In this document: piece after piece, positions 55,651 through 63,196 of the stretch
How the letters are laid out: the number at the start of each line of letters is the position of its first letter
How positions within the stretch are numbered: position 1 is the stretch's first letter
Position numbers and translations under genes: made by a program
The notes under the pieces: model-generated
The model's input: the letters and a program-made list of their open reading frames with translations, nothing else
Databases searched by the model: none
What the model was told of the DNA's origin: nothing
NCBI GenBank assembly: GCA_028284935.1
Contig: JANQQQ010000037.1
Location: 1-64,000 of the forward strand
Reading direction: 5' to 3'
Source: Croceivirga sp.
GTDB lineage: Bacteria; Bacteroidota; Bacteroidia; Flavobacteriales; Flavobacteriaceae
Length of the DNA stretch: 64,000 bases

Positions 55651-55802
55651 AACCTTTATCCTCAAGGGCCATAATTCATAACTATCCTCCTACCCCTAGT
55701 AATTTTGATTAAATTTAATATCAAACGAATAAGCCTTGGTGATTAATTGAACAGTGCCTTCCTCCGCACTTCGCAAGGCTCGGGGACGTTGGAGGCAATA
55801 TC
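55651..55802 (+). repeat. Cassette-type spacer 1 (first of the array)
   Basis: It opens with AACCTTTATCC and then GGCCATAATTCAT (55667-55679), the same start motif seen after later genes in the array, and closes with ACGTTGGAGGCAATATC (55786-55802), similar to the ACCGTTATGAGCAATT end motif elsewhere. Just downstream a GC-rich palindrome, CCCGCC-ggtc-GGCGGG (55805-55820), is inserted before the next ATG. Confidence 0.55.
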
Positions 55803-55864
55803 GACCCGCCGGTCGGCGGGCAGGAATCATAGCCGATACAGCTGGATGCACTAAAACAACTTCA

Positions 55865-56317
55865 ATGAAGAACTTTTATATAATCACTTTTTCAGTTTTG
55901 CTCCTAACCTTACTAAGTTGTAATAAGAACTTTGACGTGACGACGGAAATTCTTAGGGAAACAGAAAAATCTAGATTGAATTCTCTTGTTGAGGCGGATA
56001 TGAAAACAGCCAGAGCCATTCATGCCGATGATTTCCAGCTAATCACCCCAAGTGGACGTACTTTTACCAAAGAACAGTATTTAGAAGGGATTTCGTCGGG
56101 TAATTTAGACTATAAAATCTTTAGACCAGAGTCGGAAATTAAAGTTAAAATCCATAATAAATCTGCGGTTATTAGATACATATCTACTATCGAAATAACT
56201 GTAGGTGACAATTACTATCCACCAGAAAAATTTTGGCATACAGATACCTATGAATTTAGAGATGGGCGATGGCAAGCTGTTTGGTCTCAAGCAACCACAA
56301 TAATTGATGATAAATAA
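55865..56317 (+). CDS. NTF2-like lipoprotein, DUF4440 type
   Basis: The 150-residue protein starts MKNFYIITFSVLLLTLLSC, a lipoprotein signal. The body (SLVEADMKTARAIHADDFQL, ITPSGRTFTKEQYLEG, IRYISTIEITVGDNY, WHTDTYEFRDGRWQAVWSQA) is the NTF2-like/DUF4440 cone fold seen in many single-domain accessory proteins. No catalytic residue is obvious. It overlaps the start of the formylglycine-enzyme-like gene by 11 bp. Function unknown. Confidence 0.8.
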   Translation: MKNFYIITFSVLLLTLLSCNKNFDVTTEILRETEKSRLNSLVEADMKTARAIHADDFQLITPSGRTFTKEQYLEGISSGNLDYKIFRPESEIKVKIHNKSAVIRYISTIEITVGDNYYPPEKFWHTDTYEFRDGRWQAVWSQATTIIDDK

Positions 56318-57025
56318 TAAAATAGATCAACAAGCAATTGACAAATTGCTGGTAACCATTCCGACAGGCACGGTGGATATGCGGGACGACAGAACAAAAA
56401 AAAGTGGTCGATTGACATACATTCCTTTGAACTTTTTAAATTCCCGATAACGCAAGAATTATATATAGCAATAGCCGATAACAATCCCTCGACATTTAAG
56501 GGTAACAGATTACTAGTTGAAACCGTTTCCTGGATTGATGCCGTAAATTTTTGTAATAAGCTATCCGAATCCTTGGAGAAAGACAAGTGCTATGTCATTG
56601 ACTTAGCAACTGAAAAAGTCATCTTAAATTCAAAGGCAAATGGGTTTCGATTGCCAACGGAAGCTGAATGGCAACATGCTTGTCAAGCGGGAACTAAAGA
56701 CATTCGGCACGGAGAATTGAATGACGTTGCTTGGTTTAAAGACAACTCAAATAATCGAACCCAAGAAGTTGGACAAAAAATACCAAACCAATGGGGGCTC
56801 TACGATATGTTGGGAAATGTTTGGGAATGGTGCTCTGACATTTATGACGAAACTGTTTACGGAACATATCGTGTTTTCCGAGGTGGTGGCTGGTGCGACC
56901 ACGAAAGAAGCGTTATGGCGACAACTCGAAGAAGAAGTCATCCTTTTTCGTTCAAAATAGATGACTTGGGATTTAGAATAGCAACTAACTCGAATACTAA
57001 AAACAACAGCAAACAAAACCTATAG
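56307..57025 (+). pseudogene. Formylglycine-generating-enzyme (SUMF1)-like gene, frameshifted at an A8 tract
   Basis: From ATG 56307 the frame reads MINNKIDQQAIDKLLVTIPT and continues through VDMRDDRTKK to the run of eight A at 56396-56403. It then shifts. The second frame is open without a stop from there (W-S-I-D-I-H-S-F-E-L-F-K..., KFPITQELYIA) to the stop at 57025. The downstream part keeps the SUMF1 pattern: TVSWIDAVNFCNKL, GFRLPTEAEWQHACQAGT, WGLYDMLGNVWEWCSD, RVFRGGGWCD. One added A, or two fewer, would restore one reading frame of about 240 codons. This may be a pseudogene, a phase-variable gene, or a sequencing error. Confidence 0.8.
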
Positions 57026-57083
57026 GCAACAATACCCTGCGGAACACTACCTCCCATAGCCAGGTCGTTAGCTACAATTAAAA
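57018..57083 (+). repeat. Cassette-type spacer 2
   Basis: The spacer begins CCTATAGGCAAC at the end of the previous gene, whose stop codon TAG lies inside it (57023-57025), and ends CGTTAGCTACAATTAAAA (57066-57083), 13 bases before the next ATG. It is short (about 70 bp) and lacks the GGCYATAATT motif. Confidence 0.45.
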
Positions 57084-57096
57084 CCAAAAAATCTAA

Positions 57097-57747
57097 ATGA
57101 AAATAAAAGGAGTAGTATTTGATTTCAACGGAACCCTCTTTTTTGATACTCATTTACACAATCAAGCGTGGGATACTTTTTTAAAAAAACATGCTTTGAG
57201 ACTTGACAATGAGGAAAAAAATCAAAAAATCCATGGAAAAAATAATGAAGAAATTTTGAGAAATGTATTCTCCGATCATCTTTCCATAGAAGAAATAAAA
57301 AAACTAAGTATTGAAAAAGAAGATATTTATCAAAGCCTTTGTTTAGAAAACGAAATGGTATTGGCGCCAGGCGCGGAAGAATTTATAAATTTCCTAGGTT
57401 TAAGGAATATTCCTTTTACAATAGCAACGGCTTCTGACCTGTATAATTTAGAATTCTACTTTAAATATTTGGATTTAGGAAGATATTTTGAGCTATCAAA
57501 AATAGTTTACAGTAACGGTAAAATTAAAAGTAAACCAAATCCTGAAATCTTTTTAAAGGCAATGGAAATACTCCAGATAGAGCCAAGGGAAACTCTGATT
57601 TTTGAGGATTCAACTTCTGGGATAAAGGCTGCAAAAAATTCAAATGCAGGAAAAATTATCATTGTAAAATCAACGGATGAGGAATATGAAGAATGGAATT
57701 ATGATATCATCAAATCCTTTGAAGAAGTTAATACGTCACTATTTTAA
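57097..57747 (+). CDS. HAD family phosphatase or mutase
   Basis: The 216-residue protein has FDFNGTLFFDTHLH (motif I; FN replaces the usual FD-D pattern, nucleophile Asp9 retained with F-N-G in place of F-D-G), TIATASD (motif II), KSKPNPEIF (motif III) and FEDSTSGIKAA (motif IV). It resembles beta-phosphoglucomutase-like HADs. It is the second HAD gene in the window but clearly divergent from that at 40759, and its codon use is more A+T rich. Substrate unknown. Confidence 0.82.
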   Translation: MKIKGVVFDFNGTLFFDTHLHNQAWDTFLKKHALRLDNEEKNQKIHGKNNEEILRNVFSDHLSIEEIKKLSIEKEDIYQSLCLENEMVLAPGAEEFINFLGLRNIPFTIATASDLYNLEFYFKYLDLGRYFELSKIVYSNGKIKSKPNPEIFLKAMEILQIEPRETLIFEDSTSGIKAAKNSNAGKIIIVKSTDEEYEEWNYDIIKSFEEVNTSLF

Positions 57748-57755
57748 AATAAGCA

Positions 57756-61904: not shown

Positions 61905-62453
61905 ATGGATTTAATCAAGCACACGGAACACATATTGGAAATTCAAAATTTCTGGACTTTTGAGAAGTGTGATGAATACATTTCCAAAAGTGAGAGTATT
62001 GGATATGAACCGGCAATGGTTCAGAACGAAAATGGAGAAGAGTTAGTAAAACACATTAGGAACAATCAGCGGATACTTTTTACGGACTTTGAACTAGCTG
62101 AAAATATCTGGAGGGACATCAAAGAATTTGTACGTCCAAAACTTGGGAAAACCAAAGTGATTGGCCTAAACGAGATGTTCAGGTTTTACAAATATGAGCC
62201 AAATCAGGAATTCAAGAAACATAGGGACCAAAGCTACATTAGGAATGAATTTGAATCTAGCTATTACACCCTACTGATTTATCTTAACGACAATTTTGTG
62301 GGCGGAGAAACGACTTTTGGAAACTTAAAAATAAAACCTAAAAAAGGGGGGTGTTTGATATTCTTTCATGATTTGGAACACGAGGCGACGAAATTGGAAT
62401 TGGGCGAAAAATATATTTTGCGAACTGACATTATGTATAGGTTTGAGGAATAA
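61905..62453 (+). CDS. 2-oxoglutarate/Fe(II) oxygenase, prolyl-4-hydroxylase type
   Basis: The 182-residue protein starts MDLIKHTEHILEIQNF; an upstream ATG at 61890 falls in the repeat motif and is not favoured. It has the P4Hc pattern: MFRFYKYEPNQEFKKHRDQS (His-x-Asp iron ligands), LLIYLNDNFVGGETTFGN, GCLIFFHDLEHEATKLELGE (the third His) and YILRTDIMYR (the 2-oxoglutarate arginine). It hydroxylates an unknown substrate, protein or small molecule. Confidence 0.9.
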   Translation: MDLIKHTEHILEIQNFWTFEKCDEYISKSESIGYEPAMVQNENGEELVKHIRNNQRILFTDFELAENIWRDIKEFVRPKLGKTKVIGLNEMFRFYKYEPNQEFKKHRDQSYIRNEFESSYYTLLIYLNDNFVGGETTFGNLKIKPKKGGCLIFFHDLEHEATKLELGEKYILRTDIMYRFEE

Positions 62454-62455
62454 AA

Positions 62456-62602
62456 AACGGTTTAGAACTAGGACCATAATTTATCGCCGCATATCGTTAA
62501 CTTCATGCGTAGAGGTCACAAACGACTGGATTTAACCCCTGATAACCCTAACCTTCGGGTCCGCTGACGGACATATGAAGAAAAGATTGCAACCAAACAA
62601 AA
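62456..62602 (+). repeat. Cassette-type spacer 9
   Basis: AACGGTTTAGAACTAGG and GACCATAATTTAT (62472-62484) open it, a few bases after the previous stop. The end is GATTGCAACCAAACAAAACC (62585-62604), a degenerate version of the end motif. The 11 bases after the stop are similar in layout to spacer 1. Confidence 0.55.
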
Positions 62603-62610
62603 CCCAGAAA

Positions 62611-62973
62611 ATGGAGGTAAAAGATATCGTAGAACAGTGGTTTGAAAAATGGAACAGTGGTGACTATCTAAGCTTGCCGATATCTGAAAACTTCAAACAC
62701 ACCAGTCCTTTTGGAATAATCAATGGAAAAAGGAACTATCTTGATTTGGTGAAACAAAATGAAGGTAAGTTCCTTGGACAGGTCTTTGACTTGCACGATT
62801 CGATTTATAAAAGGGATGGAGCTTGTGTCCGTTATACGGCGAGGCAAGGCAAAGATTTTTCTTTGGAAGTAAGTGAGTGGTATTATATAAAGGACAATCT
62901 AATCGAAGAAATTGTTGCATACTATCATATCGGAGAAATTCGTGAGGAACGAAAAATCGAAAACTACAACTAG
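62611..62973 (+). CDS. SnoaL/NTF2-like protein
   Basis: The 120-residue protein starts MEVKDIVEQWFEKWNSGDYL; ATG 62575 is in frame but overlaps the spacer end. The fold pattern is EKWNSGDYLSLPISENFKHT, SLEVSEWYYIKDNLIEEIVA, YYHIGEIREERK, typical of SnoaL-like/NTF2 proteins. No signal peptide. Function unknown; a 29-codon open stretch follows (62974-63063) with its TAA in the next repeat. Confidence 0.78.
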   Translation: MEVKDIVEQWFEKWNSGDYLSLPISENFKHTSPFGIINGKRNYLDLVKQNEGKFLGQVFDLHDSIYKRDGACVRYTARQGKDFSLEVSEWYYIKDNLIEEIVAYYHIGEIREERKIENYN

Positions 62974-63044
62974 ATGGTAACTGAAACTACAGTACCACAA
63001 ACCATGAAGTACCACGGGCGTGAGCTGAAAACAGGACACAAAGA

Positions 63045-63112
63045 AACGGATAACAAGGTGTAAACTGAATTAGGGTCCAATTTCCTATTGGAAATTCCTG
63101 TAAACACTTATC
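63045..63112 (+). repeat. Cassette-type spacer 10, end of array
   Basis: AACGGATAACAAGGTGTAA resembles the start motif (compare CAACGGTGTATA). GATAA (63049-63053) and GTGT (63058-63061) pair with ACAC (63104-63107) and TTATC (63108-63112), with a central hairpin AATTTCC-tatt-GGAAATT (63079-63096). No end motif is seen before the next gene, so this may be a partial site. 63113-63196 contains nothing else recognisable. Confidence 0.45.
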
Positions 63113-63196
63113 TTTAGTATCAAGCCAATGTGATTTGGCATTGACCAAATCGGCCAACTTGATTGACCTAGAACCCTCTTTTAAAAACATGCAATT

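Follow-up and report, generated by a model that had tools for sequence, protein, structure and literature searches.

A probable decayed cassette cluster of an integron-like system of Bacteroidota in a Croceivirga genome

The window analysed here, a 64,000-nucleotide (64-kb) stretch of Croceivirga sp. (assembly GCA_028284935.1, contig JANQQQ010000037.1, positions 1 to 64,000), carries at 55,657-63,075 ten genes of unrelated families, all on the plus strand between 55,865 and 62,973 and interspersed with repeat-bearing spacers, and we read this segment, with a probability of about 0.8, as a decayed, integrase-less cassette cluster of an integron-like system of Bacteroidota. The spacers carry a 5' box (for example GCACAAC-Ann-GGCTATA or GGTGTATA) and a 3' box (for example TATAGCC or TACAC, a short spacer ending in ACC, then GTTGTR), and some hold a single box, the 5' box at 60,001, 62,460 and 63,046 and the 3' box at 57,899 and 60,963. 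Since the motifs used in these single-box scans derive partly from window spacers and the 3' motif also matches elsewhere, such matches serve as supporting evidence only.

The array, whose features all lie on the plus strand and whose gene families were assigned by Pfam, opens with a decayed attC-like site (55,657-55,849; 17.1 bits, E 0.0092 with the site model R1 described below) that has kept its L''/L' boxes and lost R''. Genes 1 and 2, a DUF4440 protein (55,865-56,317; PF14534, 4.8e-18) and a SUMF1-like protein (about 56,310-57,025; PF03781, 3.1e-25 for the frame 56,573-57,022), abut with no site in between, and most of the others are parted by spacers of about 70-280 bp. Gene 2, whose reading frames were read by eye, is frameshifted; the shift falls in a run of A near 56,400 and may reflect a pseudogene or an assembly error. 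A short site (57,006-57,075; R1 16.4 bits, E 0.014) precedes gene 3, a HAD-family hydrolase (57,097-57,747; PF00702, 1.4e-23), which is followed by a variant site (57,773-57,914, R' box 57,906-57,914) of a second subtype with other L boxes, also seen at 9,788-9,922 and 11,947-12,081 of locus L029 (CGTATAACCGCAATTACGG ... CCGTAACTTCGGTTATACC). Five of the six R' bases of this variant pair with the R'' at 58,609, which belongs to the same cassette, and the variant's spacer (57,773-57,903) is 74% identical over 137 nt to a congener array stretch (L033). Gene 4 (57,927-58,628) has no Pfam family and is followed by the best-kept site of the window (58,609-58,744; R1 41.1 bits, E 1.6e-9), gene 5 (58,797-59,177), lipocalin-like below the cut-off (PF13648, 0.0033), by a site at 59,180-59,340 (R1 18.8 bits, E 0.003), and gene 6, dioxygenase-like (59,362-59,994; PF00775, 6.5e-7), by a site with a degraded 3' half, of which the 5' half (R''-L'') is kept (60,001-60,030; 22.3 bits with a position weight matrix, PWM, partly trained on the window). 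Gene 7 is an alpha/beta hydrolase (60,108-60,920; PF00561, 6.3e-22), and beyond it the 3' half (L'-R') of a site (60,963-60,986, R' at 60,973; 19.2 bits with a drifting PWM) marks the point where homology with a congener cassette starts. The shared cassette holds gene 8, SUMF1-like (61,001-61,819; PF03781, 2e-42), and is followed by a short site (61,824-61,895; R1 16.5 bits, E 0.014), gene 9, 2OG-Fe(II) oxygenase-like (61,890-62,453; PF13640, 4e-11), a 5' half-site (62,460-62,489; PWM 17.6 bits), gene 10, SnoaL-like (62,575-62,973; PF12680, 2.2e-6), and the array's last trace, a further 5' half-site (63,046-63,075; PWM 22.1 bits).

Scans with consensus matrices alone were dropped, as repeated rounds led the 3' matrix away into coding-sequence noise, and we therefore built a covariance model, R1, from 16 sites at seven loci in six congeneric genomes (alignment A1), without any site of the window or of the window's own genome. 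On the window R1 returned five full-length matches, all on the plus strand and inside 55,657-61,895, with the E-values quoted above, whereas the best match outside the array is partial (E 0.18); the first-pass annotation of the sequence, which had proposed an integron-like cassette array here, is supported as far as the analysis reaches. When the whole genome was scored, only the best-kept window site remained strong (1.0e-7), three lay at 0.195-0.93 and the fifth was not among the matches with E<=1; the window's own sites are the weakest of the family. Of the 39 matches at E<=1 in the own genome, 26 occupy C11:1-35,892, all in one direction (plus) from the contig end on. Contig C13 has six, among them four at 87-3,038, again by a contig end; the window has four, and C22, C33 and C36 have one apiece. 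The main array of this genome is thus on C11 and C13, and the window array is a small, old satellite. The sites are concentrated in arrays, which speaks against a doubt raised at first, that the motifs might be no commoner between these genes than elsewhere. The main array reaches the ends of C11 and C13 (loci L070 and L071, from C11:1-40,000 of this genome, G000, and L072, from C13:1-14,000), and the gap between the two may hide further cassettes or an integrase. Rfam holds no family for the sites, its sole match having E 0.86.

Unguided RNAalifold on the 16 A1 sites paired R'' with R' and L'' with L', with double changes in 13 of 19 pairs; 93.1% of the alignment cells pair under this structure, and the covariation of 0.440 compares with 0.142 in shuffled alignments (0/500) and with at most 0.095 after sliding the structure. 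A second alignment (A4) of 56 other sites, taken from 17 loci of titled genomes, has 93.0% of its cells paired, a covariation of 0.593 versus 0.138, and double (compensatory) changes in each of the 14 L-stem pairs; it was fitted to the model, so that its counts lean toward it. Covariation thus supports the attC hairpin of R''/R' and L''/L', while minimum-energy folds do not show it in all sites. The claim that canonical attC sites are absent divides: the R-box consensus and the extrahelical bases are missing, whereas the attC architecture is present. In 114 sites (128 minus duplicates and those not starting with six bases plus AAC), R'' fits RYYYAAC in six and R' fits GTTRRRY in six, in keeping with the earlier remark that the motifs differ from attC. 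The core is kept, with GTT in R' of 106/114 sites and AAC, a selection filter in that count, in 56/56 sites of A4. A C precedes the R' GTT in 110/114 sites, and the portion of PMC2727003 at hand describes a G after AAC on the bottom strand as usual in attC and R'/R'' pairing that can reach 9-11 nt. The R''-L'' arm has no conserved extrahelical bases, each insert column of the L'' arm being filled in at most 2/56 sites; the one commoner insert column of the stem (7/56) is on the L' side. Median site length is 136 nt.

Three top-strand A.C oppositions are conserved, in 16/16, 13/16 and 16/16 A1 sites; in A4 the As stand in 56, 48 and 56 of 56 sites, and for the second and third of them the opposite C is present in 47/56 and 54/56. 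These oppositions are G.T pairs on the bottom strand, which therefore folds better: the bottom strand is the more stable in 84 and the top strand in 23 of 108 sites (121 were left after duplicates and sites of 100 nt or less had been dropped, and 108 once an AAC close to the site's start was required). In canonical attC, according to the same portion of PMC2727003, the strand is chosen mainly by extrahelical bases, and their loss leaves recombination possible. Their absence here would fit an enzyme without the IntI-specific insertion, such as the one described below.

In the integron circle, the R'' at the end of a cassette pairs with the first bases of the same cassette. Our measure was how many of the six variable R' bases at a cassette's start match the R'' at its own far end; cassettes with sites 2,500 nt or more apart were left out. 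Over 50 cassettes of the own genome, congeners and the window (7/72 sites dropped beforehand as partial or reverse-strand duplicates), a mean of 4.52 of six bases match, against 2.16 with partners shuffled (sd 0.17, maximum 2.78 in 2,000) and 2.48 with the R'' of the same site. The effect is stronger in 35 independent cassettes (1/56 sites dropped, that of L133, which is cut off), with a mean of 5.43 and 28/35 matching at all six bases, against 2.40 shuffled (maximum 3.23 in 5,000) and 2.40 for the same site. Along the main array, five C11 pairs beyond 29.5 kb score 0-4 and three C13 pairs 5-6, with mixed values between; missed sites contribute to this pattern. That each cassette starts with the reverse complement of its own end is, as far as sequence can tell, probably the footprint of integron-type recombination.

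In relatives, the same sites adjoin a tyrosine recombinase, the kind of neighbour that the first-pass annotation had suggested looking for. We fetched 80 loci with a profile of seven integrases, a choice independent of the sites, and found the 56 R1 sites in 17/41 Bacteroidota loci (40 titled so, one unassigned) and none in the 39 loci of other phyla, as one would expect if the system were specific to Bacteroidota, as had been surmised. Downstream of the integrase and on its strand lie 54 of the 56 sites, the other two being upstream and divergent; the array is downstream and in line with the integrase in 16/17 titled array loci, and divergent arrays occur in L117, in G084 and in several congeners. 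In 15/17 same-orientation loci (L029 plus the 16 titled ones make up the 17), the gap from integrase to first site contains an exact nine-base complement of the first cassette's R'', which in 14 loci is no more than 375 nt away from the integrase, so that an attI-like site appears to stand beside the integrase, joined to the first cassette. L030 too has an exact complement, and L100 and L101 reach 5/6 at best; the six divergent loci split evenly between 6/6 and 5/6 matches, each being the best of many candidates. G006 and G010 share the stretch ATATCCGTCATATGACGGATATCCAATTGTTGT and then differ in their first cassettes.

The array-linked enzymes have the catalytic R, K, H, R and H in 24/24 cases and Y in 23/24, and lack the IntI-specific insertion (I2/patch region; 42 residues) in 24/24: the distance from KDR to HxLR is 58-59 residues in all 24 and 100 in 12/12 IntI, and the alignment with IntI4 (2a3v) splits at the insertion (query 10-177 to 13-181, query 200-270 to 247-317). 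Six array-linked proteins tested against the IntI family TIGR02249 score 203.5-213.6 bits, under the cut-off of 265; their best NCBI family is the XerA-type NF040815, over its 220-bit cut-off in five of the six (L035 at 214). This family is named "site-specific tyrosine recombinase/integron integrase", so that the NCBI name already ties it to integrons, whereas XerA itself is known for chromosome dimer resolution at dif, not for cassette arrays. In a quick tree with 23/74 branches open, which leaves a single origin of the array-linked enzymes unsettled, the IntIs form one clade (SH-aLRT 100) with none of the 24 inside. Within the genus, intact copies of the array-type integrase occur in G002 (two), G003, G005, G006, G009 and G010, scoring 435-475 bits on the array-integrase profile, and frame-broken ones in G002 (a third) and G007; by that profile none was seen in G000 (the own genome), G001, G004 and G008. 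Six of the seven intact copies have an R1 site next to them and the seventh, in G009, an exact attI/R'' pair, while around two genus integrases of another type (L036, L037) no site was found in 9-12 kb. A long form of the array integrase, of 375 amino acids (aa), is encoded at L029 5,102-6,229, L030 4,991-6,118 and L031 5,445-6,572, and its roughly 100 N-terminal residues have no Pfam family in the two scanned, L029 and L031.

Congeners carry some whole cassettes in other gene surroundings. Cassettes shared between the own genome and congeners end within 29 nt of sites: C11:16,930-17,684 is 93.5% identical over 756 nt and window 60,970-61,850, the gene 8 cassette, 85% over 882 nt to G001, and C11:2,605-4,401 82% over 1,797 nt to G003. 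G001 holds the first two in one array, elsewhere than at the position corresponding to the window, and the own genome holds them on two contigs. The flank genes of the window array (54,821-55,585 and 65,211-66,377) have relatives in 10/10 congeners, whereas in the stretches compared there (1.2-15 kb, some ended by contig ends) no array gene was found, except that close to the right flank of G006 and G009 there is a SUMF1-like sequence with a distant match (33% over 132 aa). Synteny of the window genes in close relatives, which would have spoken against an array, accordingly failed on this comparison. In G004 and G007, R1 sites turn up roughly 6-10 kb past the left-flank gene. The single-contig genome G002 has about 1.1 Mb between the two flanks, so that the array (55,586 to 65,211 region) may sit at a rearrangement breakpoint.

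Across an evenly drawn sample of 148 genomes of the phylum, 54 genomes in 37/83 genera have R1 matches at E<=1e-5, many with one or few sites, and 12 genomes of the same family besides the own one carry sites; among 39 genomes of other phyla, a set without a known-positive genome, none matches R1 at 0.01. Canonical IntI is distributed differently. TIGR02249 is over its cut-off in 46/148 phylum genomes and in 0/11 of the own genus, and the 47 genomes at E<=1e-45 include none of the own family, none of the own order and one of the own class. The idea that the sites serve canonical IntI was tried on ten IntI loci and failed in nine, R1 sites occurring in L204 alone. In that locus (genome G044), four new-type sites at 7,735-10,410 lie upstream of a canonical IntI at 14,223-15,113, on the same strand.

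The system shares with integrons and CALINs (clusters of attC sites lacking integron-integrases) its gene-plus-site cassettes in one orientation, the complement of each cassette's own end, the attI-like site by the integrase, the R''-L''-L'-R' hairpin with its bottom-strand bias and the C before R' GTT, as well as the occurrence of integrase-less arrays. It differs in its recombinase without the IntI insertion, in the lack of conserved extrahelical bases, in R boxes that rarely fit RYYYAAC/GTTRRRY, in its median site length and in an array that in most loci is downstream of and in line with the integrase. Because the insertion and the R-box consensus are missing, we do not place it in the IntI-based family, which is known within the phylum (portions seen of PMC8618304 and PMC2426708); and because its sites fail the attC consensus, the window, which has sites in a genome where no array-type integrase was found, is read as no more than a CALIN-like remnant of this system. 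A cassette would consist of one gene, rarely more, and one attC-like site; in relatives, the array-linked recombinase, as the probable catalyst, would join the R' point of that site to the attI-like site beside it, cleaving within R' GTT. The substrate would be the site folded as a single-stranded hairpin with one long stem, probably of the bottom strand, and new cassettes would enter next to the integrase in a single orientation. The window array would be immobile once its integrase was lost.

Other mechanisms could yield gene-plus-repeat arrays. That these are canonical IntI/attC cassettes drifted in sequence, with a true IntI acting in trans, would suit the attC-like site architecture, the frequency of TIGR02249 proteins in the phylum, the integrons already listed in Bacteroidota (PMC8618304, in the part available) and the co-occurrence of IntI and sites in L204; it is improbable given that the own genus has no protein over the cut-off, that the strong IntI genomes include none of the own family or order although 12 other genomes of the family carry sites, that nine of ten IntI loci have none, and that either R-box consensus is so rare. 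We give about as little credit to the notion that the cassettes are mobilised by a recombinase resident in the genome, such as the chromosomal XerC/XerD, with the neighbouring integrase as a passenger: arrays are present in the own genome where no array-type integrase was found, and the best family of the array integrases is XerA-type, yet an attI-like site beside the array integrase starts the arrays in most loci, and all seven intact genus copies adjoin a site or an attI/R'' pair while for the two genus integrases of another type no site was found within the 9-12 kb around them.

The repeats also follow stop codons and fold, and the window spacers are degenerate, as would hold for intergenic hairpins (terminators, REP-like or RNA elements) between genes shuffled by ordinary homologous recombination; this we regard as very improbable, because the complement joins a cassette start to its far end and not to the hairpin that holds it, and because a complement also stands by the integrase and no Rfam family fits. 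A rather unlikely but more serious case is that the sites are recombined double-stranded by the ordinary tyrosine-recombinase route, the hairpin being incidental. It would account for the unimpressive minimum-energy folds of single sites and for an enzyme without the insertion that PMC7790495, in the part seen, holds necessary for folded-strand use; a double-stranded site, however, needs neither the compensatory changes at all 14 L-stem pairs nor the A.C oppositions that favour folding of the bottom strand.

Several observations weigh against the decayed integron-like cluster that we prefer. In the window, hand-set pairs of cassette start and end score 5/6 for gene 4, 3/6 for gene 5, 6/6 for gene 6 (start 59,332, end 60,001) and 1/6 for gene 8, the last rising to 5/6 (bases read by eye) with R' placed at 60,973, where the congener homology starts; automatic pairs score 1-3 of 6, missed sites being one cause. 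At its lowest energy the best-kept window site, 58,609-58,744, folds into inner hairpins, not the L''/L' stem, and its z of -4.2 and -4.4 on the two strands arises through these; 61,824-61,895 has z -1.5 and -0.8, 57,006-57,075 has +1.1 and -0.4, and a well-kept site of the main array, at -1.1 and -1.6, is barely beyond shuffles. As for the enzyme, 24/41 Bacteroidota loci with a related integrase have no R1 site, some on short contigs; adjacency within the genus is in-sample, R1 being derived from those same loci; and on the quick tree the array-linked integrases do not group together as a single clade (17 changes versus a shuffled mean of 20.6). Among five array stretches of the phylum sample, G084 has an insertion-less integrase and L204 a canonical IntI, and L203, L209 and L214 have no integrase within the array stretch. 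In the own genome, where PF00589 occurs at six places, no array-type integrase was found, the two profile matches being Xer-like by reading (158 and 127 bits); this extends to the genome the initial remark that no integrase is visible, and, as the own arrays run into contig ends, one may lie in an assembly gap.

The I2 insertion has been called necessary for cassette capture and a step from a double-strand to a folded-strand recombinase, with intermediates lacking (PMC7790495, portion seen), an account that a widespread integron-like system without the insertion makes testable. We lean slightly toward a second integron class in Bacteroidota, with folded-strand capture, a recombinase without I2, sites without extrahelical bases and strand choice through the three bottom-strand G.T pairs; if true, it would be a living intermediate on the path to IntI or an independent invention. 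An "integron-like subgroup" of tyrosine recombinases is known, for which the insertion is called essential to integron function, and the part of PMC8138268 consulted describes no arrays without it, unlike those here; open-licence literature, judged by title and the start of the abstract, yielded no description of cassette arrays with insertion-less integrases in Bacteroidota. From the portions seen, IntegronFinder requires an IntI-specific domain (PMC9668308), and the survey made with it names a single complete integron for Bacteroidetes proper, that of Salinibacter ruber (PMC9024848), so that a considerable stock of potentially mobile genes may have escaped notice, on the scale of the 54 site-bearing genomes above.

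Some smaller observations concern neighbouring genes and single loci. The gene after the window array (63,197 to about 64,852) is serine-hydrolase-like by reading; at the right flank of the congeners its sole counterpart found was a 36% relative in G008. In L129, L130 and L133, two from Marinilabiliaceae and one from a Bacteroidetes metagenome-assembled genome, array-type integrases lie within open frames of 676-720 residues. L029 holds two near-identical sites in succession (8,801-8,934 and 9,242-9,374), probably a duplicated cassette.

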